DNA from: a virus | Direction: 5' to 3' (one strand) | Length of the DNA stretch: 64,000 bases | Virus record (IMG/VR): IMGVR_UViG_3300020196_000016 | Location: 1 to 64,000 of that record | Part shown: positions 4,787 to 63,211 of the stretch, piece by piece | How positions within the stretch are numbered: position 1 is the first letter of the stretch | Layout of the letters: each line of letters opens with the position of its first letter | Program-made: the position numbers and the translations under genes | Notes under the pieces: generated by a model | Told to the model about the DNA's origin: nothing | The model's input: the letters and a program-made list of their open reading frames with translations, nothing else | Database searches by the model: none

Positions 4787-5716
4787 TTAATTAATAATAC
4801 CAAAGTCTTTTCTCATTTTTAAAACCGCTAAATTTTTTCCTTTTGCTTCTACATCAACATCAATTTTATTTTCCAGAATTAGTTCTTTCTGCTTTTCTGG
4901 AATATAGTGAATATTATAACTATGTTTTCGGCGCTCTGTAAAGGAGCCTTCTTCCATTCCCGGTTCAGTATTACTCAAATGCTGAAGAGGTTTAATGTTT
5001 CCCCAAGTTTTCATAGTTTCAATACACGCTGTAGAAATGTCCATGTTACCAGTGTTGAACGTATGGTGGTGGCTGTCCCACACAATCGGCGTTCCGGTTT
5101 TCTCATGGATTTTAATCAATTCTGGAACACTATAAGAACTTTCATCGTTCTCAAGCGTTAATCGTTTACGCGTTGATTCGGGCAAAGAAAGAATACTGTT
5201 GATTGCTCGTTCAATGTTTCCACGCTTGCCGCCATGTATGTTGATGGCGTAATAAGGTGAATGTTCAAAACCCATTTGATCAAACATCCAAGCGTGGTAG
5301 TTTAATTCTTTGATTGCGTTTTTAATTACATCATCACTATCACTGCTGATAACTGCAAACTGACCGGGATGACAAGTTACACGAATATCGTTCTTCTTGA
5401 AAAGATTTCCAAGAAGCTTAAATTTACTCAACAATACTTCGCTTGTCTTCGCAATATCTTCACAGAACTCAAAGAGTGGGAGAACATTGCTGGACATACG
5501 AAACGATTTAATATTTGCTGCATTAAGCTTAGGAACCAGCTTCAACAATTCATTTACATTGTTGATATAGGTTTCAAGGATTTGCTGTTGGCCGTATTTA
5601 CCTTTTTTATACGCACCCAACTGCAATAATTTTTCTTCAATTGAATTTTCATAAACAATAGAACCATCACGTTTTGTGCACGGCTCCAACCACTGACAAC
5701 AGATTGATAGACTCAT
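4787..5716 (-). CDS. uvdE: UV DNA damage endonuclease UvdE
   Basis: 309 residues, a TIM-barrel endonuclease that nicks DNA 5' to UV photoproducts and other lesions. Family landmarks visible: S-I-C-C-Q-W-L-E-P start, R-M-S-S-N-V-L-P, C-H-P-G-Q-F, A-I-N-I-H-G-G, L-T-L-E-N-D-E and W-D-S-H-H-H, the last supplying metal ligands. I chose the ATG at 5716 (MSLSICC) because GGAGG lies 4 bp upstream; an upstream start would add 11 residues with no SD. Length matches phage and Bacillus-type UvdE. A likely role is phage genome repair. Confidence 0.93.
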   Translation of the reverse strand: MSLSICCQWLEPCTKRDGSIVYENSIEEKLLQLGAYKKGKYGQQQILETYINNVNELLKLVPKLNAANIKSFRMSSNVLPLFEFCEDIAKTSEVLLSKFKLLGNLFKKNDIRVTCHPGQFAVISSDSDDVIKNAIKELNYHAWMFDQMGFEHSPYYAINIHGGKRGNIERAINSILSLPESTRKRLTLENDESSYSVPELIKIHEKTGTPIVWDSHHHTFNTGNMDISTACIETMKTWGNIKPLQHLSNTEPGMEEGSFTERRKHSYNIHYIPEKQKELILENKIDVDVEAKGKNLAVLKMRKDFGIIN

Positions 5717-5767: not shown

Positions 5768-6034
5768 CTACTTCTGGACTGGATAGTGTTGAATATAACC
5801 GTCTAAAATCATTTTTCTTAAAGAAGAATTTAAGACTGTTGTACTTCTCATTAAATCAACTGGAGTATCAGCACCATCGATAACCCATTCAACAGTTGAA
5901 ATATTATTTTGAATATTTACTATAATTCCTCTTCTTCGAATCATTTGCTCTATTTTTACAGGATTGGGAATTTGCTGAATCAACAAATCACCAACACTTA
6001 TATTACGAAAACTATAAGATGATGACATAATCAT
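5768..6034 (-). CDS. GDL-family small protein
   Basis: 88 residues: I-S-V-G-D-L-L, then R-R-G-I-I-V and T-V-E-W, ending H-Y-P-V-Q-K, the full family pattern well outside the main array. It is coupled by ATGA to the coiled-coil gene upstream. Several ATGs near the start leave the exact N terminus open by up to 3 residues. Confidence 0.72.
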   Translation of the reverse strand: MIMSSSYSFRNISVGDLLIQQIPNPVKIEQMIRRRGIIVNIQNNISTVEWVIDGADTPVDLMRSTTVLNSSLRKMILDGYIQHYPVQK

Positions 6035-6222
6035 GCTTTAAAAGTATTCATGCTGATCTCAGCTAGTACTTTAATCTTTTCTACAGCTATCTTTAATATC
6101 TCATCTACAGTTTCTACATTAGCTTTATCTTTATCGTATTCTTTTCTTATTTCTTCCCATTTTTGTTCTAATTCTTCTAATTGAAGCTGTAAATCAAGTT
6201 GTCTGAAAGGTGAAGGTTTCAT
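6031..6222 (-). CDS. Small coiled-coil protein
   Basis: 63 residues, almost all heptad-like helix (L-Q-L-Q-L-E-E-L-E-Q-K-W-E-E-I). It is followed by a second helix K-I-A-V-E-K-I-K-V-L-A. The start codon follows GAGGTACC. It overlaps the next gene by 4 bp. No family recognised. Confidence 0.65.
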   Translation of the reverse strand: MKPSPFRQLDLQLQLEELEQKWEEIRKEYDKDKANVETVDEILKIAVEKIKVLAEISMNTFKA

Positions 6223-6233
6223 TTAGGTACCTC

Positions 6234-6470
6234 TTATAATTTAACTTTAAAATAACCAAATATTTCGTTTTCAACTCTCCATTTTATAATGGATTCAAAT
6301 ATTTCAGTTTCAAGAGCCATATCATTCCACAATATAGAATAAACATATTCAATATCTAATCGATCATATCTTACTTTTGTTATGATACCAGAAGACAAAG
6401 TCATACCATCGATATGCTCTGTAAACAAATCTCCAACGTTATAAAGTGGTTTTGTTGTCTTTCTCTTCAT
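6234..6470 (-). CDS. GDL-family small protein, diverged
   Basis: 78 residues: Y-N-V-G-D-L-F, S-G-I-I-T and I-L-W are present, but the C terminus (F-G-Y-F-K-V-K-L) has drifted from P-V-x-K. It overlaps the upstream paralog by 32 bp in another frame. Confidence 0.68.
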   Translation of the reverse strand: MKRKTTKPLYNVGDLFTEHIDGMTLSSGIITKVRYDRLDIEYVYSILWNDMALETEIFESIIKWRVENEIFGYFKVKL

Positions 6471-6729
6471 TACATTTTATTATCTTCAATATATATTTAT
6501 TATCGATTTTTAATTTTAATTTATTACGCATGGTTGTTTCTGAAAGTTCATCAAGTTGTTTATGGCGTGCCCAAAGTATTTTATAATTTTTTATATTTTT
6601 TCCATATAAAGAATTATATTCTTCATGAATATCGTAAACGATACCAATATCGTGGTGTTCTAAATTTAGATCCACGGGGCAATAATGAATTAAATCTCCA
6701 ACGTTGATAACAGATTTTTTTTCTTTCAT
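6439..6729 (-). CDS. GDL-family small protein, diverged
   Basis: 96 residues from MKEKKS, preceded by GAGG at 6 bp. A start 4 codons upstream with AAGGTG is equally possible. I-N-V-G-D-L-I, D-I-G-I-V and Y-K-I-L-W-A-R mark the family; the C terminus is lengthened and Lys-rich. Adjacent paralogs on the 3' side suggest a local duplication. Confidence 0.65.
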   Translation of the reverse strand: MKEKKSVINVGDLIHYCPVDLNLEHHDIGIVYDIHEEYNSLYGKNIKNYKILWARHKQLDELSETTMRNKLKLKIDNKYILKIIKCNEEKDNKTTL

Positions 6730-6772
6730 AGCGCGCCTCATAAGCGCACCTTACATCTAACGAGCCAATATG

Positions 6773-7069
6773 TCAATCTTCTCCGAAATCTTCTTCATCA
6801 TCATCCGGAGAGACTTGATCTTCTTCCATATATTGTGTTACGCTATTGATATAATCATTAGCAAGACTTATATAGGAAGAAACCCATCCAGGAAGTTCAT
6901 CATCTTTTTGAATCAACTTATAAAGAACCAAGCTGTTTTTAATTAAATTACGAATTTCTCCGCGAGCCATTCTGCCTTCATGATCGTGCGGTTCTTTTCT
7001 TGGTTCTCTTTCGGCAACATCTAGCTCTTGATCGATCATTTCTAATAATATTTTATTATCTACCTTCAT
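6773..7069 (-). CDS. Conserved phage protein, possible virion component
   Basis: 98 residues. H-D-H-E-G-R-M-A-R-G-E-I followed by L-P-G-W-V-S-S-Y-I-S-L-A-N-D-Y-I is reminiscent of a small helical protein next to structural genes in marine myoviruses. The C-terminal tail is acidic (DDDEEDFGED). The next upstream gene is 9 bp away. Function inferred only by resemblance. Confidence 0.65.
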   Translation of the reverse strand: MKVDNKILLEMIDQELDVAEREPRKEPHDHEGRMARGEIRNLIKNSLVLYKLIQKDDELPGWVSSYISLANDYINSVTQYMEEDQVSPDDDEEDFGED

Positions 7070-7078
7070 ATTTGTTCC

Positions 7079-7570
7079 TTATTTAAACGGCCAGAAATCT
7101 TGTACGCCAAGCATTCGATCTAATTTATTTGCTTCTGCTCTTATTTCTTCTCTGGTTTTTTGATTACTTGGATCGTCAGCAGCCTTACCCATCATTAAAC
7201 CTTTGAGATAAGTGGATTCAATATTAATCATGTGTTCTAATTGCTTAACAAGACTCGGTTGACCGGTTAAGCGAAGTTTTATATCTTTACCAAGAACCCT
7301 TGCTGAAACAATTTTATATATTTTTTCAGCAAAATCGTTGAGTGCTTTTTTACGAACTTTTTCATCATTCATATCAACAATTCCACCAGCTTCTTCGCCT
7401 TCTTCCATTCTTTTTGGACAGCCTACTGTTCCACGGCGTTCGCCTACGGCGAGATTATCTGAGCCTGGTTTATGAGTATTGTTTGTAAAATATTGACTAT
7501 CTTCTAGCTTCATTTCATCGTTATATTCTATTACGTTGCCTCTTTGATATGGTTCTTTATAATGTCTCAT
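7079..7570 (-). CDS. Hypothetical phage protein
   Basis: 163 residues. The N-terminal third is polar (RHYKEPYQRGNVIEY); the C-terminal two thirds are helical, with K-A-L-N-D-F-A-E-K-I-Y-K-I-V and L-D-R-M-L-G-V-Q-D-F-W-P-F. SD GGAGAT lies 5 bp before ATG. It heads the leftward operon and faces the rightward gene at 7629, so the 58 bp between them should hold divergent promoters. No family recognised. Confidence 0.65.
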   Translation of the reverse strand: MRHYKEPYQRGNVIEYNDEMKLEDSQYFTNNTHKPGSDNLAVGERRGTVGCPKRMEEGEEAGGIVDMNDEKVRKKALNDFAEKIYKIVSARVLGKDIKLRLTGQPSLVKQLEHMINIESTYLKGLMMGKAADDPSNQKTREEIRAEANKLDRMLGVQDFWPFK

Positions 7571-7628
7571 TTAATATCTCCGATAAGTTCATTAATAATT
7601 ATGCTAATCTAATTATAATAACACAAGA

Positions 7629-8021
7629 ATGAAAAAATTAGCATCTCCAAGAGCAAATAAAAGCATAAAAAGAATATATCTTGTAATATACGATCAACAA
7701 GAATTTTATGGATATGACGCAAACGCTCCAATAAAAGCTTTTAAAATAAAAAAGAATGCTGATTTATATGTAGCAAGCAGAAACTTCGAATTCCAAACTG
7801 TTTGTATGATGGATGATGAAGATTATGAAAACTATGTTCTTTCAAACAATTATTCAGATTATATTGTATCTGTAAGCGATTTTAGAGACGCGCATGGATA
7901 TATCAAAGAAGAAATATTGAGATTAGAAAAAAACAGAATACCAGTTAACATATGGGAAATATTAGAAAATATTAAACCATTTAAAATATTACCAATTGAA
8001 TATATAACAGAAACAAAATAG
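7629..8021 (+). CDS. Hypothetical protein, only plus-strand gene in the AT-rich part
   Basis: 130 residues, with amino acid use and AT-rich codons like its neighbours. I-Y-L-V-I-Y-D-Q-Q-E-F-Y-G-Y-D reads like an alpha/beta start. It ends exactly where the leftward gene on the other side ends, a tail-to-tail junction with no spacer. A TAATTATAAT -10-like box is 15 bp upstream; the SD is weak. Function unknown. Confidence 0.65.
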   Translation: MKKLASPRANKSIKRIYLVIYDQQEFYGYDANAPIKAFKIKKNADLYVASRNFEFQTVCMMDDEDYENYVLSNNYSDYIVSVSDFRDAHGYIKEEILRLEKNRIPVNIWEILENIKPFKILPIEYITETK

Positions 8022-9389
8022 CTATATATCAATCTGGTCGATAACGTGTGTGCTGCTAAATGATAATTCGCGATAAAACTTTTTCACGAATTCCTTGGTT
8101 ATTTTGGCAATTTCTTTTTTGGAATCTTTATCTCGCAACAACTTCTCAAATTCATCACGAATAATCTTGCGAAGTTCATCTTTTGAAATCTCTTCGTTAA
8201 TAAGTGAACTTTCTTTAAGAACAATTTTTATTTTATTCATGATGATGTTTTCCTGTACACTTCTATTGTATCTTTGGGCCAATGGAATATCTAATTTATC
8301 TAACGAAGGCATTTCACCTTTTATAGAATTATATAGAAGCCCAGAAGCATAATCATATAATTCACGAGTGTTTGGTGATTTTTTTATGCTTTTCAATAAA
8401 TCACTTGGCAGAACATAAGCTTGCAATTTATTTGCTGCAGCAAATTTAGATTCTTCAGCTGTAAGCTGCGAATCAATAAATAATTTAAGCAATATCTTTA
8501 CAGCTTGTGGAAAGATAGATAATTTATCGGGATTCTTTTGTTTAAATCTTTCAACATAAGAAAGAAATTTATCTGCTTCATCTTGAAGATCTGTTTGCAT
8601 TTCAATATGTTGAAGATGATGTGACGTATCTCGTTCATCGCTTGATGTATTATCTAATACATCACGCGGAGGAAGACCAATCTTCCAATCACCAGCACCA
8701 AGAACGTTTGACATTGTATTTTGAAATAAATGCTGCAATTCATGACGAACACTGGTTTTGGTATCTTCTAATTCTGTATCAATATTTTCTATTATTGCTG
8801 GTATGCTTCGTGAGCCAACAGAAAGACCAGGTTCAGCTTCACCACGTGGTGTTTCAGTTGGAACAAAGAAAGAAGAATTAAATGTAACAATTATTTCATC
8901 AATATCCGATTTATATAATCCAGCATAATCTTTTTTTGTTGTTGTTCCTCTTGAGCCAAACTCAATAACAAATTGAATATCATTAACATCTTTGTTTTTA
9001 AAATAACGTTTTAAACGGTTTTTAAACGCTGCTGGTTTTATTCTGCCACGCAGATAGGTTTCAAGTTCTGGCCAAGCAACAAGGGCCATTATAAATTGTT
9101 CTATGGATATAGCTTCAATGACTTCACCATTCTTTATAACAGTATTAACATCTAAATCTCCAGTAAACCCAACTTGTCCAATGTCGCCAATTTCTTTTGC
9201 ATATTTTTTTTCAATTTCTTTTAAAAGTTTCCCATATCTTGTTGATAGCCTGGGATTAGAACTAGATTGTTTATTTATAAAATCAATAACAAGTTTTACA
9301 TAAGCAGCACGATAAGCACGTGTTACCTCATCAACAGTTTCTTGTGGAACTGGAAGTGTTCTGCTTTCTATTAGTTTAATTTTGATCAT
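8022..9389 (-). CDS. HExxH-type metallopeptidase-like protein with virion-type C-terminal helix
   Basis: 455 residues. V-R-H-E-L-Q-H-L-F-Q in the middle is an HExxH zinc site with F-G-S-R-G-T upstream, as in minor zincin-like phage proteins. The last ~60 residues (K-D-E-L-R-K-I-I-R-D-E-F-E-K-L-L) form a charged amphipathic helix that recurs at the ends of phage structural proteins. ATG at 9389 overlaps the upstream stop by 4 bp. Likely a virion-associated peptidase; a purely structural role is possible. Confidence 0.7.
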   Translation of the reverse strand: MIKIKLIESRTLPVPQETVDEVTRAYRAAYVKLVIDFINKQSSSNPRLSTRYGKLLKEIEKKYAKEIGDIGQVGFTGDLDVNTVIKNGEVIEAISIEQFIMALVAWPELETYLRGRIKPAAFKNRLKRYFKNKDVNDIQFVIEFGSRGTTTKKDYAGLYKSDIDEIIVTFNSSFFVPTETPRGEAEPGLSVGSRSIPAIIENIDTELEDTKTSVRHELQHLFQNTMSNVLGAGDWKIGLPPRDVLDNTSSDERDTSHHLQHIEMQTDLQDEADKFLSYVERFKQKNPDKLSIFPQAVKILLKLFIDSQLTAEESKFAAANKLQAYVLPSDLLKSIKKSPNTRELYDYASGLLYNSIKGEMPSLDKLDIPLAQRYNRSVQENIIMNKIKIVLKESSLINEEISKDELRKIIRDEFEKLLRDKDSKKEIAKITKEFVKKFYRELSFSSTHVIDQIDI

Positions 9390-10516
9390 TTCTTTTTAAC
9401 TGTATAAGATAGGGAGTTTGCTTTTTCTTTACCGCTAACATCTGGGTCATCTGGATTTTGGCTATAAACAGCATATGGTTGTGGTTCAAGCTTTAGCCAA
9501 TTTGTTCCAGTGTGTTTAAATCTTGTTCCGCGAAGTTCTGGATTTCTTTCTAATTGCGGATCTGTTTCAAAAAATTCAATACGATTTCCGAAACCAAATC
9601 CATATTCTTTTCCTTGACTGTCAGTTACAGTATATGCATTGTTTAACATTTTTGCAAACTCTGGATATCCACCTTGTTGCAAGGCCGAATCATTGTGGTA
9701 TAGTTTGCTAAGGTAGTTGATGATACCAGCTTTTTGAAATTTGCCTTTTGGATAATAATCATATCCTTCTACTGTAACTGGTTCAGTTATTTGTAAAGGA
9801 TTCTCGACGTTCTTTACAACTGGTCTTGGTGATGCAACAGCGTATCTTGGAATAACAACTGATTTATCTTTCTCACCAATAAATTGTTTTATATCTCTCG
9901 TGAAATTAACATCATCTTTATTTGCAACTGTTAAAACGCCATTTATTTCAGCAGTTATACCAGCTTGCTTATCTTCTGCATTAACGTTATATAATATTTG
10001 TTTTAATTTTTTTTCTGCTTCAACTTTGAGTTTTCTTTTCTTTTCATTACTTGTCGACATGTTTGCAACAGCATTTGTTAATAATTCTGATTCACCGTAT
10101 ATAAAAATACGGTCAATTTCTTTTTTTATTTCTTCTTCGGATGCAGTTGAACCAACAAGTTTTGCAAATTCGGGTATATCTGCAATTATTCCTGTTAATG
10201 ATTGTTTCATTTTTGCCAACTTAAGGGCATATGCACGATGACGACCTTCGTGATAAACAACTTCTGCATTACCAGAATCGTCTACATTAACTGATAGTTG
10301 AACTTCACCAGCTTTTTTTGGGTCAAAGTCACCTTCAATTCTTTTGCCTTCAAATGCTTCATCTTTGATCATTTTCATTAATTCTGCATCTGTTGTTAAT
10401 GCGAGATAATCACCAACACGGAATTTAACTGGAACTCTTACATTTTCAAGCAATAATTGCCGTTTTGGTTTAGCAAAGCTATGCCAAGCATTATAAAACT
10501 GTTTGTAATTTGTCAT
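9386..10516 (-). CDS. Protein with ParB-like H-E-G-R-H-R motif
   Basis: 376 residues. Residues ~25-115 hold F-R-V-G-D-Y-L then Y-H-E-G-R-H-R-A-Y-A-L, similar to the ParB/sulfiredoxin catalytic loop that binds nucleotide. The remainder has charged helices and a Tyr/Pro-rich C-terminal region. It is the first gene left of the GC-rich island; the bases upstream are AT-rich and turn GC-rich near 10,640. Function unknown. Confidence 0.65.
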   Translation of the reverse strand: MTNYKQFYNAWHSFAKPKRQLLLENVRVPVKFRVGDYLALTTDAELMKMIKDEAFEGKRIEGDFDPKKAGEVQLSVNVDDSGNAEVVYHEGRHRAYALKLAKMKQSLTGIIADIPEFAKLVGSTASEEEIKKEIDRIFIYGESELLTNAVANMSTSNEKKRKLKVEAEKKLKQILYNVNAEDKQAGITAEINGVLTVANKDDVNFTRDIKQFIGEKDKSVVIPRYAVASPRPVVKNVENPLQITEPVTVEGYDYYPKGKFQKAGIINYLSKLYHNDSALQQGGYPEFAKMLNNAYTVTDSQGKEYGFGFGNRIEFFETDPQLERNPELRGTRFKHTGTNWLKLEPQPYAVYSQNPDDPDVSGKEKANSLSYTVKKK

Positions 10517-10742
10517 ATGAAATAAATAGTCAAAAGCAAAAATCCCGGAAAAATTCCCAGGAAATTTTTTATAAGCCCGATTTTAGGAGATGTTTTATAA
10601 TTTTTGGAAATTTATAACGCAGTGCGAAAAGCAAAAGTTTACAAAAATTTCCCGTGTGTCGTGGGGGTACTAAGTACAGGAACAGCCCCCACCCGTCCAT
10701 GGGGGACATACATTCCGGTGTGAGGGGGATCACCCCGTTATA
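10517..10742. other. Intergenic junction between AT-rich genome and GC-rich island
   Basis: Composition changes sharply between about 10,600 and 10,660. The right half contains strong G/C inverted repeats: GTGGGGG with CCCCCAC (about 10,658-10,691), an overlapping CCCCC with GGGGG pair, and GGGGTGATCCCC-like bases by 10,735. These are plausible terminators for the leftward gene at 10,743, although T-tracts are poor. Confidence 0.5.
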
Positions 10743-18457: not shown

Positions 18458-18684
18458 GGTTTCACCTTTACCAGTGTATAAATCCCTTCTTCAATGAGTT
18501 CAGTAATTTTTTCTTCTAAAACCCATGTTGATTTTCCAATTGGTTTTCCATTAAGAAAAATTATTTTATAAAAAGCACCATTTTCACCTTCATTTAATAG
18601 TTCGCTTGGACCATAACTATAACTTGAAACATATAAGAGCGTATCTCCACCAGATAGAAAAAGATCACCAATGTTATATTTCAT
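18454..18684 (-). CDS. GDL-family small protein
   Basis: 76 residues: Y-N-I-G-D-L-F-L, F-Y-K-I-I-F-L-N-G-K-P-I-G-K-S-T-W-V-L-E-E, ending Y-T-L-V-K-V-K-P. The F-L-N-G-K-x-x-G-x-T block is shared with the truncated gene on the other side of the homing endonuclease. It overlaps the endonuclease stop by ATGA. Confidence 0.72.
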   Translation of the reverse strand: MKYNIGDLFLSGGDTLLYVSSYSYGPSELLNEGENGAFYKIIFLNGKPIGKSTWVLEEKITELIEEGIYTLVKVKP

Positions 18685-19466
18685 TTTACAACTGATGTTT
18701 GAACTTCGCTATGTTTTTTGCGTTTTTTTGCTTCACTCAATTTCTTTTTATGTTCTTCGCTAAGTTTTTTACCAATATTTGCTTTCCTCAACTTCTGTTT
18801 TGTTTCTTCGCTCATATTCTTATTTACTTCACTCAATTTCTTTTTATGTTCTTCGCTAAGTTTTTTACCAATATTTGCTTGACTTATTTTCTTTTTTGTT
18901 TCTTGACTGAGTTTTCTGCCAGTCAACGCTTCACTTATTTTCTTTCTTGCTTCTTTGCTGGACATTCTGTCTTTTGCCGCTTCACTTATTTTTTTTCTTG
19001 TCTCTTCGCTAATATTTCTCTTTGCTTCACTTATTTTTCTTTTTGATTGTTCGGTATGTTTTCTGCCTGTCAAAGCGACACTTCTTTTCTTTCTTGTTTC
19101 TTCACTTATGTTTCTGCTTGCTTCGCTCATTTTCTTTCTTGTTTCTTCGCTGTGTTTTACACCAAGAGGAGAACCGGCAACTTTACATATGTTATAGCCT
19201 CTATCGTCTTCATAAGACTTATAATAATCTAAATAAACTTGCTCGTATGCCAATAGGTGTTCTGGGTTTGATACTTCTTCTATTATATCAAATGTGAAAC
19301 TTTGTTCGCCATATTTATTCCAGGCTTTTTGTAAGTGTTCGGAATGATGTTTTCCTTCTTTTAGATAATGCTTATGTTGGGACCATCTTTTATCAATATT
19401 GACTGCCGAACCAATATAAACCTTGTTGTTTTTTATATTTTTTATTAAGTAAATGCCACTTTTCAT
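18681..19466 (-). CDS. GIY-YIG homing endonuclease with NUMOD3 repeats
   Basis: 261 residues. The N terminus G-I-Y-L-I-K-N...K-V-Y-I-G-S-A and R-W-S-Q-H is a complete GIY-YIG nuclease core (residues 4-35). Seven or more NUMOD3 units follow (S-E-E-T-R-K-K-x-S-x-A-x-x-G-R-K), which bind DNA. SD GGGAG precedes ATG. It stands inside the GDL array, and the next gene upstream is truncated, as expected for a mobile gene insertion. It would cut related phage DNA lacking the insert and spread by recombination. Confidence 0.92.
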   Translation of the reverse strand: MKSGIYLIKNIKNNKVYIGSAVNIDKRWSQHKHYLKEGKHHSEHLQKAWNKYGEQSFTFDIIEEVSNPEHLLAYEQVYLDYYKSYEDDRGYNICKVAGSPLGVKHSEETRKKMSEASRNISEETRKKRSVALTGRKHTEQSKRKISEAKRNISEETRKKISEAAKDRMSSKEARKKISEALTGRKLSQETKKKISQANIGKKLSEEHKKKLSEVNKNMSEETKQKLRKANIGKKLSEEHKKKLSEAKKRKKHSEVQTSVVK

Positions 19467-32675: not shown

Positions 32676-32752
32676 TGGTAGACCAGGTGGGAGTTGCACC
32701 CACGACATTCCGCTTATAAGACGGACTCTCTAACTAACTGAGATACTGGTCC
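32676..32752 (-). tRNA. tRNA-Ile(UAU)
   Basis: 77 nt with full cloverleaf and encoded CCA. Acceptor GGACCAG/CTGGTCT (first pair G-U), T arm GTGGG-TGCAACT-CCCAC. The anticodon loop C-T-T-A-T-A-A gives UAU for codon AUA, frequent in AT-rich genes. Confidence 0.88.
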
Positions 32753-32755
32753 ATA

Positions 32756-33034
32756 TTATAGTTTGTGATAGTTGAAATAAAACTTTTCAAGATCAGTTGT
32801 GTAAATACATTTCATTTTCTGTGAATAGCATTGTACCAACTTTACATCTTTAAGAACATTTACATTTTGCGGAGATACAAGACCCATTACAATAACAACA
32901 TCATCTTTTTCCATTCTAATCAATTCAAAATTATTAGACGGCTTCAAGATATTATATTCATTATGACGAATCCAGAAAGAGCCGGGACAAACACTATTCT
33001 GGAAAGTGCTTTTCATTCTATTCTTGCGTCCCAT
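32756..33034 (-). CDS. Hypothetical small protein
   Basis: 92 residues: basic start G-R-K-N-R-M-K-S, then strands D-D-V-V-I-V-M-G-L-V and V-K-L-V-Q-C-Y-S. It ends 3 bp before the tRNA-Ile gene. A PDZ/SH3-like small beta fold is conceivable. Function unknown. Confidence 0.6.
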   Translation of the reverse strand: MGRKNRMKSTFQNSVCPGSFWIRHNEYNILKPSNNFELIRMEKDDVVIVMGLVSPQNVNVLKDVKLVQCYSQKMKCIYTTDLEKFYFNYHKL

Positions 33035-33041
33035 ATATCAC

Positions 33042-33275
33042 CTATTTTGCTACTGGATATACAATAACTTCTTTGTTTCTTACCCAATCATTTAGCAAAG
33101 AAAAGCCGACTTTATTATCTTTTGTCTGATCGTAATTATCATAATATTCCCAATGAAAAAGATAATATCCTCCACCATACCAATCATTGTTATTGATTCT
33201 ATCAATTATAACACCATTGTATACCAGAAACATTGGATTGTTGACTATCACTAAATCGCCAACATCATATTTCAT
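33042..33275 (-). CDS. GDL-family small protein
   Basis: 77 residues: Y-D-V-G-D-L-V-I, Y-N-G-V-I-I-D-R and Y-L-F-H-W, ending I-V-Y-P-V-A-K. The ATG overlaps the upstream stop as ATGA, so the start MKYDVG is chosen. Confidence 0.72.
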   Translation of the reverse strand: MKYDVGDLVIVNNPMFLVYNGVIIDRINNNDWYGGGYYLFHWEYYDNYDQTKDNKVGFSLLNDWVRNKEVIVYPVAK

Positions 33276-33481
33276 ACAGAAATAACTTTCCACTTTCCGA
33301 ACTTGATAAGTTGCTTGATTGTGGATGGATCAGCACCCCACTCTTTATGATCTCCAACATTCCAAAGCATAATATAGTGATACAGCTTATCGTCCGGGAC
33401 ACGAAGAACAACACCGGTACCACCAGTATCACTTTGGATCAAATCACCAACTTTGATATTGAGATTATTGTTTTCAGTCAT
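33272..33481 (-). CDS. GDL-family small protein
   Basis: 69 residues from MTENNN: I-K-V-G-D-L-I, T-G-V-V-L-R-V and Y-I-M-L-W. C terminus W-K-V-I-S-V. Coupled to the paralog above. Confidence 0.72.
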   Translation of the reverse strand: MTENNNLNIKVGDLIQSDTGGTGVVLRVPDDKLYHYIMLWNVGDHKEWGADPSTIKQLIKFGKWKVISV

Positions 33482-33494
33482 ATTTAACCCAATA

Positions 33495-33833
33495 TTAGAA
33501 GTCAAAATCAAGAGAGCGATTCAAACGAATATTAAACGGAGTTTCCCAAGTTCCCTTTGATGTATAATCATTATCATCTTCACCAAGAACGTGATATGAA
33601 TAATCATCTTGATTAAGATCTTCAAGTTCTTCAATAAATTCATTTACTGCCTTGACTTCCGGATAATCATCATACCACTTTACATCGTGAAACTCAACAA
33701 GTTTCCAGCCATTACATTCATGAATCTTGGAACCATCAATAAAGTTAGCAGCAACACGATCTTCCATTGTCTTGATAAGTTCAGAGAACCTTTCATCTTT
33801 GAGAGCAAGAAGAACATCACTACGATAACCCAT
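33495..33833 (-). CDS. Conserved phage protein (M-G-Y-R-S-D-V start)
   Basis: 112 residues from ATG at 33,833, SD CGGAGATAAT. The start M-G-Y-R-S-D-V-L-L-A-L and V-E-F-H-D-V-K-W-Y are seen in many phage proteins of unknown role. Middle acidic loop D-L-N-Q-D-D-Y-S. Function unknown. Confidence 0.68.
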   Translation of the reverse strand: MGYRSDVLLALKDERFSELIKTMEDRVAANFIDGSKIHECNGWKLVEFHDVKWYDDYPEVKAVNEFIEELEDLNQDDYSYHVLGEDDNDYTSKGTWETPFNIRLNRSLDFDF

Positions 33834-34039
33834 ATTATCTCCGGTAGTTAGTGTTAAAGAAATGGTGGATATATCTAACGCTTTCCACCGAAACGTCTTA
33901 CCAGATATGGTATAATGATATAACGCCAAAGACACTTGACGGGAGAACACAATAATGTAGCCTACTATGCTAGTTGACTCCTATTCACATAGTAAGTATC
34001 ATAAACACAGTCATGTCATAATCATGCTCATGTTTATAC

Positions 34040-34125
34040 TGGTGCCGAGAGTGGGACTTGAACCCACAAGATATTGCTATCAGAAGTTTTTGAGACTTCC
34101 GTGTATACCATTCCACCATCTCGGC
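34040..34125 (-). tRNA. tRNA-Leu(CAA)
   Basis: 86 nt class II tRNA with a long variable arm. Acceptor GCCGAGA/TCTCGGC, encoded CCA, T arm GTGGG-TTCAAGT-CCCAC. The anticodon stem GAAGT/ACTTC frames CAA, reading UUG. A hairpin (ACCCTATCT/AGATAGGGT) lies on its 5' side. Confidence 0.9.
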
Positions 34126-34156
34126 ATAACCCTATCTGTATAAGATAGGGTATTTT

Positions 34157-34419
34157 TTAGGCAAGAGTCAATAGGCAATTCTTAAAAATCTTTACAACAC
34201 GAATATCAGTAAAATCAACTACATCTCCACCCTCAAGAGCCACAATATTATCATCGGTTGTGAAAATCCAAGCAGCACCTTCATCACAAATAATAACATC
34301 ACCTGGCTCTGGTTCAGGAACTTATTGATTTGATTAATTTTAGTAAGCAGATCGTTATCTGCAATACTAACTCGGAATTGAATTTCTTTGAATGACTTAT
34401 TTTTTTGTTTATTGATAAT
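34157..34419 (-). pseudogene. Frameshifted small gene without a normal start codon
   Basis: Two halves in different frames read like one protein: K-S-F-K-E-I-Q-F-R-V-S-I-A...L-T-K-I-N-Q-I-N-K-F, then P-E-P-E-P-G-D-V-I-I-C-D-E-G-A-A-W-I-F-T ending L-L-T-L-A. The junction AATAAGTTCCTGAA would be in frame with one more T. An SD (AAAGGAG) stands 7 bp before ATT, where ATG is expected. Either a decayed gene, an assembly error or unusual ATT initiation plus frameshifting. Confidence 0.5.
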
Positions 34420-34433
34420 ATAATACTCCTTTG

Positions 34434-34583
34434 TTAATAATATACCGACGCCAATTCTGGCCTGACATTCTCAATAACAATCTCATCTTCTGGAACACTT
34501 ACACTAATAACTCGTTCATGCTGAACGGTATCAGTATCACCGTGAACAAAAGAAGCGAGAAGAATAAAAAACTTACTAAACAT
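34434..34583 (-). CDS. Small possibly exported protein
   Basis: 49 residues: M-F-S-K-F-F-I-L-L-A-S-F-V-H-G as a short signal-like segment, then an acidic stretch V-S-V-P-E-D-E-I-V-I-E. SD AAAGGAG precedes ATG. Its stop is next to the SD of the frameshifted gene. Confidence 0.6.
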   Translation of the reverse strand: MFSKFFILLASFVHGDTDTVQHERVISVSVPEDEIVIENVRPELASVYY

Positions 34584-34607
34584 ATCTCTTTCTCCTTTAT
34601 AATACAA

Positions 34608-34683
34608 TGGTGGATCGGGTGGGGGTCGAACCCACGACCAATAGATTAAAAGTCTACTGCTCTACCAACTGAGCTACCAATCC
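34608..34683 (-). tRNA. tRNA-Lys(UUU)
   Basis: 76 nt, canonical cloverleaf with encoded CCA. Acceptor GGATTGG/CCGATCC, D arm GCTC-AGTTGGTA-GAGC, anticodon loop C-T-T-T-T-A-A, T loop TTCGACC. Confidence 0.93.
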
Positions 34684-34715
34684 AAAAAAGAATCCGTTTT
34701 TATCACAGAACGGAT
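34684..34715 (-). terminator. Rho-independent terminator
   Basis: Leftward ATCCGTT, 10-base loop, AACGGAT, then TCTTTTTT. It separates the ATPase gene from the tRNA-Lys gene. Confidence 0.72.
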
Positions 34716-34766
34716 AAACTGTTTAGTGTTTTGCGGTTCAGAGTTTACACTAACAACTCCATTATC

Positions 34767-35828
34767 TCACTTCGGCTTCTTACCAGTCAGCAGTTCCGAA
34801 AGAAACTTGGAAGGCGAAGTTCCATCAACATTGATCTGGTGAAGAGCAGTAGTATTTTCCACCATACCCTTACCAAGAACATGCCACATCTTCATAGCAG
34901 CTTCGGAAGGCAAGCTGATGAAATACCGTGCAAGATTCTCCAACTGATCCTTGGGCATCTTCTTTGCAAGGAAACCCTTGGCCTCAATCTTATCAATAAG
35001 AGCACAATGCTCAATGATACCAAACTTCTTCACCTTATCAAACTTACCATTGACGATAACGTCTTCGGGCGTAACCTGACGATCATACTTCTCCACGAAG
35101 TCGTGAAGGGCAATCGCAGCCTCATAACCAACAAAACCAACTGCGATATTGCGAATATCCTTCATGTTGTTTTCGCTGAACATATCAGCAGAAGTCAACA
35201 CATCATTACAACGCTTCCACGAACGACGAGAAGGATACACCTTATTGGGTTCAAAGTCACCCTTATGCTCAAGGTGTTCACGATTCAGATTGATGAAATC
35301 GTAAACAAACTGATTAGTATTGTTCTTCGCCCAAGTGAGCCAATCTTCCACAGTAGGCGCAAGATCAAAGGTAGTCCACCGATCAAGTTCGGCGGGGTCC
35401 ATCTCACCAACCTGATATTGTGCTCCGCTTTCGCCACCGTTGACAGCGGCAACAATAAGCGTATCGGGATGGAGAGTATGACCGTTCAGCTTACGAGAAT
35501 CAGTAAGTTCAAAGATACCTTGACGAACTTCAATAACTGCACGATCAACTTCATCAAGGAAGAGGAGAACGGCATTATTACACGCCATCTTGAACCAGTC
35601 CGGGGGATTCCACTTGGTAGAATCACCGGAGATCACGGGCAACCCAACAAGATCACCCTCGGTCATCTGTGATGCACGGCGTTCAACAACCGGAAGATTC
35701 CTTTCCGCTGCAATCTGATACACAACTTGCGACTTGCCAATACCGTGACGACCACGGAGAAGAAGCGGCAACTTATTATCCAGAATCGGCTTAGCGATAC
35801 GGAAGAAAGTATTGAAATCGAGCTGCAT
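34767..35828 (-). CDS. MoxR/CobS-type AAA+ ATPase
   Basis: 353 residues. Walker A G-R-H-G-I-G-K-S (about residue 26), Walker B V-L-L-F-L-D-E-V-D, sensor-like A-A-V-N-G-G and arginine L-D-R-W-T-T-F. This is the AAA+ family that works with VWA proteins (CobS-CobT, MoxR, RavA-ViaA). Its likely partner is the VWA protein at 30,954-32,219, both with own promoters. Its base composition is more GC-rich than the surrounding genes. Role in phage unknown. Confidence 0.88.
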   Translation of the reverse strand: MQLDFNTFFRIAKPILDNKLPLLLRGRHGIGKSQVVYQIAAERNLPVVERRASQMTEGDLVGLPVISGDSTKWNPPDWFKMACNNAVLLFLDEVDRAVIEVRQGIFELTDSRKLNGHTLHPDTLIVAAVNGGESGAQYQVGEMDPAELDRWTTFDLAPTVEDWLTWAKNNTNQFVYDFINLNREHLEHKGDFEPNKVYPSRRSWKRCNDVLTSADMFSENNMKDIRNIAVGFVGYEAAIALHDFVEKYDRQVTPEDVIVNGKFDKVKKFGIIEHCALIDKIEAKGFLAKKMPKDQLENLARYFISLPSEAAMKMWHVLGKGMVENTTALHQINVDGTSPSKFLSELLTGKKPK

Positions 35829-35906
35829 TGTTTTCTCTCTCTAGTTTATCGTTATCTGACTTAGATCATCGTGCGGGATTGCCCGGTGATCTTTCCGACC
35901 CGTTGC

Positions 35907-35935
35907 ATCATAGCATGGATCGCGTTCGCTGTCAA
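35907..35935 (-). promoter_or_regulatory. Sigma-70 promoter of ATPase gene
   Basis: Leftward TTGACA, 17 bp spacer with GCGATCCATGC, TATGAT. GATC-containing GC-rich promoter of island type inside AT-rich sequence. Confidence 0.75.
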
Positions 35936-35972
35936 CACACACTAACTTGCTTACAGTATAAAATACAGTAAG

Positions 35973-36047
35973 TGGAGCCAACGACAGGATTTGAACCTGT
36001 ATCTCGCACATTACAAAAGTGGAGTTTTACCGTTAAACTACATTGGC
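35973..36047 (-). tRNA. tRNA-Thr(UGU), weak anticodon stem
   Basis: 75 nt. Acceptor GCCAATG/CGTTGGC, encoded TCCA end, T arm ACAGG-TTCAAAT-CCTGT. Loop T-T-T-G-T-A-A gives UGU. The anticodon stem CCACT/TGTGC has two mismatches, so the molecule may be a partly degenerate tRNA. Confidence 0.78.
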
Positions 36048-62700: not shown

Positions 62701-63193
62701 TGAAATAAGAGTGAAAAGATTGTTTAGACCTTTCTGGTTCTGTGCGAGAAGGACGAGATGAGAACGCCGATTGAGAACACTCTTTTTAGTCTTCTTTGTC
62801 TCTTCTTCGTTTTCAACGATTGCGCCTGTGATCTCCTCGTCCTCTTTTTTGCTTTTTGTTGTTTTTTCAATTTCTTCCTTATCTTTCCGCCATTGGGCAA
62901 TAGATGGATGAAAGTACATTTCACAGCCATAAATTGGCTTGAAATCCTTTTCTTCCTTTTTCATCTTCTTGGCATGAAGAACTTGATATGAAAGTCCATT
63001 CATATTTCCGTGATCGGTTAGTGCGAGAGCATCCGAACCATTAGAATATGCGAAATCCATATGTTCATCTGGATAACCCAGACCATCAAAAATGGCACCA
63101 TTAGGAAAAGCCCGAGTGTGCGTGAAGTCCAACGAACTTGATACGCGAAACGAGCTTTTCCTTGATGCCTCCTTTCTCGTTAATAGGGGACAT
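59737..63193 (-). CDS. dnaE: DNA polymerase III alpha subunit (DnaE type), frameshifted at N terminus
   Basis: The main frame (59,737-63,132, 1131 codons) has GPGRGSAAGALVSYVLG, catalytic P-D-I-D-Y-D, F-Q-E-Q-I-A and an HhH (I-K-G-V-G-D-A-A-I). It lacks the usual PHP start. A separate frame from ATG at 63,193 (AGAGG SD) encodes M-S-P-I-N-E-K-G-G-I...F-V-G-L-H-A-H-S-G-F-S then TAA at 63,101, overlapping the main frame. H-A-H is the PHP metal pair, so the frames belong together: a +1 shift at TTT-TCC-TAA would join them. Otherwise a TTG start gives a PHP-less protein. Programmed shift, mutation or assembly error remain open. Confidence 0.9.
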
Positions 63194-63211
63194 ATATTTA
63201 ACCTCTTTTGT

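Follow-up and report, generated by a model that had tools for sequence, protein, structure and literature searches.

How can a phage make a full-length DnaE-like DNA polymerase from a gene whose reading frame is broken within the N-terminal PHP domain? This question is raised by the dnaE locus of the IMG/VR record IMGVR_UViG_3300020196_000016, an 82.6-kb virus record of which we analyzed a 64-kb stretch (hereafter, the window). The minus strand of the window carries 50 of its 51 open reading frames (ORFs) of at least 150 amino acids. The first-pass annotation had described a 30-codon ORF that encodes the HAH of the PHP domain, possesses a good Shine-Dalgarno (SD) sequence and ends in TTT-TCC-TAA, followed by a polymerase that continues in the +1 frame without an SD sequence of its own. 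A programmed shift, a mutation giving a PHP-less enzyme and an assembly error had been offered as explanations.

Two reading frames of one polymerase gene

Both the short ORF and the polymerase frame that continues from it are present in the sequence as described. The parts of the locus are listed below; the hairpin together with the SD-like sequence at its 5' side is hereafter referred to as the element, and L numbers designate related contigs.

63202..63208 (-): Shine-Dalgarno sequence AAAGAGG of the short ORF, seen in the sequence, with counterparts 5' of the ATG in L142-L146
63101..63193 (-): frame-0 ORF of 30 codons, N-terminal PHP strand with HAH, conserved in six other contigs
63168..63177 (-): SD-like sequence AGAAAGGAGG within the short ORF, unchanged in every contig that carries the element
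63094..63169 (-): 76-nt hairpin of 29 bp, from folding, pairs and covariation
63169-63151 with 63114-63094 (-): helix 1, with the AA of the stop bulged
63146-63143 with 63123-63120 (-): helix 2
63139-63134 with 63130-63125 (-): helix 3
63101..63109 (-): putative shift site UUU UCC UAA, identical in all seven contigs
63094..63103 (-): 10-nt insertion TAATGGTGCC, stop and tip of the 3' arm, by comparison with L002
59737..63102 (-): +1 frame, DnaE-like DNA polymerase III alpha (remaining PHP, palm, finger and HhH domains)

The short ORF starts at the ATG at 63193 and its 30-residue product, MSPINEKGGIKEKLVSRIKFVGLHAHSGFS, terminates at UUU UCC UAA; it encodes the stretch ...IKFVGLHAHSGFS, with the HAH codons at 63124-63116 on the minus strand. 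The UCC of the putative shift site is a rare codon, representing 6% of the serine codons in the phage. The polymerase frame stays open across the overlap and down to 59737. It is also open upstream to 63219 and contains an ATG in L142-L146 (MRKE...) for which the window has ACG, and the sole common start codon of this frame before the PHP domain is TTG 63132, which lacks an SD sequence. Joining both frames yields a phage DnaE with PHP, palm, finger and HhH domains and with the PHP metal ligands known for the family. These ligands are divided between the frames: HAH lies in frame 0 and the other seven in frame +1, where none of them varies among the 21 polymerases compared. Purifying selection acts on the gene: of the single-change codons between L143 and L144, 154 are synonymous and 5 non-synonymous. 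Given this selection and the retention of the other PHP ligands, the HAH should be translated, in which case the frame change must lie within UCG GGC UUU UCC.

The very strong SD-like sequence AGAAAGGAGG is present only once in the window, against 0.13 expected. In the linear sequence, the polymerase frame offers no start codon at a spacing that would allow its use, and 61 nt separate the end of its AGGAGG from the UCC downstream. It may serve initiation past the hairpin, act as a ribosome tether or keep the region clear.

The break and its hairpin in relatives

The first-pass annotation suggested looking for conservation of the shift among relatives, and the same break, hairpin and shift site were indeed found in six further contigs. 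The resulting seven contigs form three lineages: the window; L142, L143, L144 and L209; and L145 and L146. Polymerase identity between lineages is 82% (window/L146), 63% (window/L143) and 61% (L143/L146). Unbroken relatives such as L002 (90% identical) encode MTERKLSKIKFVGLHAHSGFSIFDGLGYP in a single frame, and single-frame readthrough was likewise found in the remaining relatives inspected. Relative to L002, the window presents ten extra bases, not one, plus a longer N terminus. These ten bases, TAATGGTGCC, are located at the exact homing site, between HAHSGFS and IFDGLG, and the N-terminal extension relative to the unbroken relatives corresponds to the 5' arm and AGAAAGGAGG. Every contig found with either the 5' arm or the 10-nt insertion also has the other, and the unbroken relatives have neither; none of the contigs found carries the 5' part of the element without the break. 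The frame-0 ATG, the SD sequence and HxH are retained in all element-bearing lineages.

The hairpin, whose 3' arm contains UUU-UCC-UAA, has a folding energy of about -38 kcal/mol (z of about -5.9, ranging from -5.5 to -5.95 across the lineages, with no shuffled sequence equally stable). All 29 pairs are maintained, with identical pairing, in the three lineages. Double-sided changes are found at three pairs: GGCAUCA/UGGUGCC becomes GGUUCCA/UGGAACC, and GCGU/ACGC becomes GAGU/ACUC. The latter change also converts HAH to HSH, which some unbroken relatives use. All double changes vanish when the partner is slid by 1-3 bases. This covariation appears good but thin, because there are only three lineages and three pairs with double changes. 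In unbroken relatives, the 5' ends form different pairs, with folding energies of -19 to -27 kcal/mol. No known RNA family in Rfam matched the element at E-values up to 1.

In each lineage pair, no stretch of the gene surpasses the first 29 codons of the overlap in conservation, with 90% identity against a gene mean of 67% for window/L143, 94% against 78% for window/L146 and 86% against 65% for L143/L146; in a scan of about 1,100 sliding windows, at most one elsewhere attains the value of the overlap. Part of this high identity could stem from recent transfer. On the polymerase tree, the element must have been gained or lost three times or more, which fits transfer. Selection within the overlap points to opposite frames in two lineages, because base pairing sets most of the changes. 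Searches beyond this group yielded little: the element was not found in isolated phages, whose best polymerase matches are about 30% identical or less, and no exact match to the shift site was found in prokaryote genome contigs. No further convincing copies were detected in the window or in the related loci searched, and the hits of a wide pattern scan were mostly due to chance.

Endonuclease genes at the position of the break

The break coincides exactly with the positions of LAGLIDADG and GIY-YIG homing endonuclease genes in sister phages. In L003, L004, L006 and L007, an endonuclease gene is located between an upstream dnaE remnant and the working polymerase. The remnant is the native dnaE 5' end, which breaks off after HAHSGFS-I in L004, L006 and L007 and after HAHSGFS in L003. 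The endonuclease is of the LAGLIDADG_3 type in L006, whose polymerase is the closest to that of the window (95%), and of the GIY-YIG type with NUMOD3 in L004; the genes of L007 and L003 are 83% and 87% identical to these. In all four contigs the working polymerase starts at the end of the endonuclease gene with a differently worded 5' end.

The gene order is identical in L142, L143 and L144, where the nuclease belongs to a third type, Phage_endo_I-like (Pfam, 7e-8; T7 endonuclease I in PDB, 1.7e-5), and the hairpin element forms the working 5' end. L209 also carries this nuclease gene together with the element. In the L142-L144 lineage the remnant reads IPFVNLHGHSTFSI and the element IKFVGLHAHSGFS. 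Because these two sequences differ, the element was probably brought in by the cassette and not derived from the native gene. The element is present without an adjoining endonuclease gene in the window, L145 and L146, and L002 represents an empty site. Judging from the position of these genes, the endonucleases would be specific for this site and the altered dnaE sequence would be protected from cleavage.

Three unrelated kinds of endonuclease use one dnaE codon, each ending in a re-worded copy of the dnaE 5' end. To judge from these contigs, this codon is a homing hot spot in the phage group. A small ORF (KYQVG...), with a low-complexity stretch of CTCCCTCGCCCT-like repeats that vary in length, is found between the dnaE remnant and the endonuclease gene (L006:4749-5108, L004:4804-5118, L143:4455-4727) and, in L145, upstream of dnaE (5271-5573). 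The polymerase of L145 (IMGVR_UViG_3300042305_001857, 5998-10600) contains a further break, at about codon 788, due to a split intein, the halves of which flank a Phage_endo_I-like nuclease ORF (8485-9216) related to the nuclease of L142-L144; the near-identical L146 is devoid of this intein. Elsewhere in the window, a 261-aa ORF (18681-19466, minus strand) is 40% identical to the GIY-YIG endonuclease of L004 and probably encodes a GIY-YIG homing endonuclease of this phage.

Decoding across the break

Our preferred explanation, which we consider reasonably probable, is that a homing-linked cassette destroys the target site in dnaE and that the polymerase is produced by programmed forward recoding, most likely a +1 shift at UUU_UCC_UAA. 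The broader statement, that forward recoding of one kind or the other (+1 shift or bypass) is programmed here, appears highly probable. Ribosomes would initiate at the ATG at 63193 and translate the N-terminal PHP strand with HAH. At UUU UCC UAA, some of them would move forward into the +1 frame by re-pairing from UUU to UUU or from UCC to CCU, and then read AAU GGU GCC AUU. The predicted product is a single full-length polymerase, HAHSG-F-S/P-N-G-A-IFDGLGYP, with the junction peptide FVGLHAHSGFSNGAIF for a shift at UCC and FVGLHAHSGFPNGAIF for a shift at UUU. The hairpin would act as the stimulator. When UCC occupies the P site, the ends of helices 3 and 2 fall 24 to 14 nt upstream, where the mRNA leaves the ribosome; helix 1 could not close as long as its 3' arm occupies the ribosome, and its closure would pull the mRNA out behind the ribosome, pushing the ribosome forward. 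The cassette would persist because the 10-nt insertion and the re-worded 5' end destroy the endonuclease target between HAHSGFS and IFDGLG.

Forward recoding is favored because of precedents for such sites and of the position of the hairpin at the mRNA exit: UUU_Ynn is prone to +1 shifting in bacteria, known +1 sites include stops in the A site, and in T4 gene 60 a similarly placed 5' stem-loop has been proposed to initiate bypassing by pulling on the mRNA (PMC5009743). Several points count against a +1 shift: the re-pairing of UCC to CCU is poor, with one mismatch, the product would contain a 3-residue insertion (NGA or NGT) that is found in no unbroken relative, no 3' stimulator was seen at the shift site, and the SD-like sequence lies 61 nt from UCC instead of the 3 nt of known +1 sites. 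The tRNA genes of the window (Ile(UAU), Leu(CAA), Lys(UUU) and Thr(UGU)) include none for a four-base serine codon; all four lie within 32676-36047 on the minus strand, and none reads serine or phenylalanine codons.

The absence of extra residues between HAHSGFS and IFDG in unbroken relatives would be accounted for by the main rival, a 10-nt bypass, in which ribosomes would take off at UCC before the UAA, skip UAAUGGUGCC and resume at AUU, giving HAHSGFS-IFDGLGYP (junction peptide FVGLHAHSGFSIFDG). The insertion is exactly the 10 nt to be skipped, so that the sequence of the relatives would be restored exactly, and the stop adjoining the take-off codon, the 5' stem-loop and the homing link all resemble T4 gene 60. 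However, the take-off codon UCC matches the landing codon GCC (window, L145 and L146) or ACC (L142-L144 and L209) at two of three positions, a 3' take-off stem-loop is lacking while the stop and the take-off codon pair upstream, and a simple folding estimate, which sets the folding of RNA outside the exit channel against ribosome position and uses T4 gene 60 as yardstick, does not separate the two movements and gives a 10-nt slide no advantage over +1. We regard this as a possible but unlikely route. Alternatively, translation could stop at the UAA and the polymerase start separately at AUU 63093-63091, the hairpin bringing AGAAAGGAGG adjacent to it, with the HAH-bearing 30-aa peptide associating non-covalently with the polymerase. 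Such a split would explain why AGAAAGGAGG and AUU are invariant on either side of the hairpin, and there are phage enzymes, split at homing sites, that reassemble (PMC2988022). Yet AUU is very rare as a start codon, the last GG of the SD sequence is overlapped by the hairpin, translation of the short ORF would unfold the hairpin, and isoleucine is also common at this position among unbroken relatives, all of which makes separate initiation improbable.

The remaining explanations dispense with recoding at the shift site. A polymerase without HAH and with an inactive PHP domain could result if translation began internally or changed frame early, near AGAAAGGAGG, with the hairpin as a roadblock. 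In L142-L146 the polymerase frame, which extends upstream, contains an ATG, but in the window it presents ACG and no ATG, and preservation of the frame-0 ATG, SD sequence and HxH in all lineages, as well as of the other seven ligands, renders it very unlikely. The same ligands and the purifying selection speak against the mutational loss of the PHP domain entertained by the first-pass annotation. Slippage of the RNA polymerase at TTTT would shorten some mRNAs by one base and restore the frame; the TTTT is invariant, but a run of four is far below known slippage runs and the hairpin would be left unexplained, such that we find slippage hardly credible. Frame changes in metagenome contigs are commonly erroneous, but seven contigs with two divergent versions of the element, a difference of 10 nt instead of one from unbroken relatives and downstream purifying selection leave next to no probability for a sequencing or assembly artifact or for recent inactivation by mutation; the seven contigs refute the assembly error raised earlier. 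Conservation and covariation argue instead for the programmed option. The first-pass reading is partly supported in this sense; the hairpin with its shift site, the 10-nt insertion and the location at a homing site formed no part of it.

Among known systems, the nearest parallel is T4 gene 60 with mobA (NC_000866), in which a phage replication gene with an insertion is decoded by a 50-nt translational bypass (PMC5009743, PMC2988022). The stop directly follows the take-off codon there, as it follows UCC in all seven contigs here, and the 5' stem-loop at the mRNA exit would have its counterpart in helices 3 and 2. The homing endonuclease gene at the T4 site has counterparts here in relatives, but none adjoins the element in the window, and in both cases the insert is proposed to protect from cleavage. 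The two differ in insert length (50 nt against 10 nt), in the gene (topoisomerase against polymerase) and in their unrelated sequences; T4 also presents fully matched take-off and landing codons and a 3' take-off stem-loop, whereas here the codons match incompletely and the stop lies in the 3' arm of the 5' hairpin. On these last two points, matched codons and 3' stem-loop, the element falls outside gene 60-type bypassing.

Other +1 systems are more distant. The prfB (release factor 2) shift shares the direction, a shift at the last codon before a stop and an SD-like sequence within the ORF, but its SD-like sequence lies 3 nt from the shift codon instead of 61 nt and its stop is UGA instead of UAA; with the large hairpin here as a different stimulator, membership was rejected. 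No gene of the RF-1 release factor family was found in the 82.6-kb record, nor any sign of release-factor autoregulation. The likeness to antizyme noted in the first-pass annotation holds for UCC followed by a stop. It does not extend to the UGA, the 3' pseudoknot or the polyamine link of antizyme: here the stop is UAA, the ribosomes are bacterial, conservation concerns a 5' hairpin with no pseudoknot seen on the 3' side, and in bacteria UUU_UCC is at least as good a +1 site. The antizyme type was rejected as well. The +1 frameshifts of Listeria phages PSA, A118 and A500 also concern phage genes, and in tsh the stop lies directly 3' of the shift codon, but they yield a second structural product, use a proline codon, involve a 3' pseudoknot in cps and have no homing link (PMC5009743). 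Free-standing homing endonucleases of T4-like phages likewise place a nuclease gene inside a conserved replication gene (PMC2988022); here, however, the cassettes bring a substitute 5' end for the target gene, which in one lineage includes a frame change. Overall, we would class the dnaE element as a variant of homing-linked phage recoding. The literature searched, with subscription journals mostly outside its scope, held no description of phage DnaE recoding at a homing site.

To our knowledge, hardly any phage gene other than T4 gene 60 is known to stay functional through translational recoding at a homing site. The replicative DNA polymerase studied here, with its covarying hairpin, would add an independent example, and the sister phages display occupied, empty and re-worded states of one site. 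Should the less likely bypass be correct, dnaE would be a second phage gene decoded by programmed bypassing, driven by a 5' hairpin that is a protective part of a homing cassette, and recoding would be a recurring way for essential phage genes to cope with homing endonucleases. If the preferred forward recoding is true, the element would offer a compact natural system for studying forward movement of the ribosome by RNA behind it. If this independent example holds, the idea that recoding elements originate as a defense against homing endonucleases becomes directly testable.
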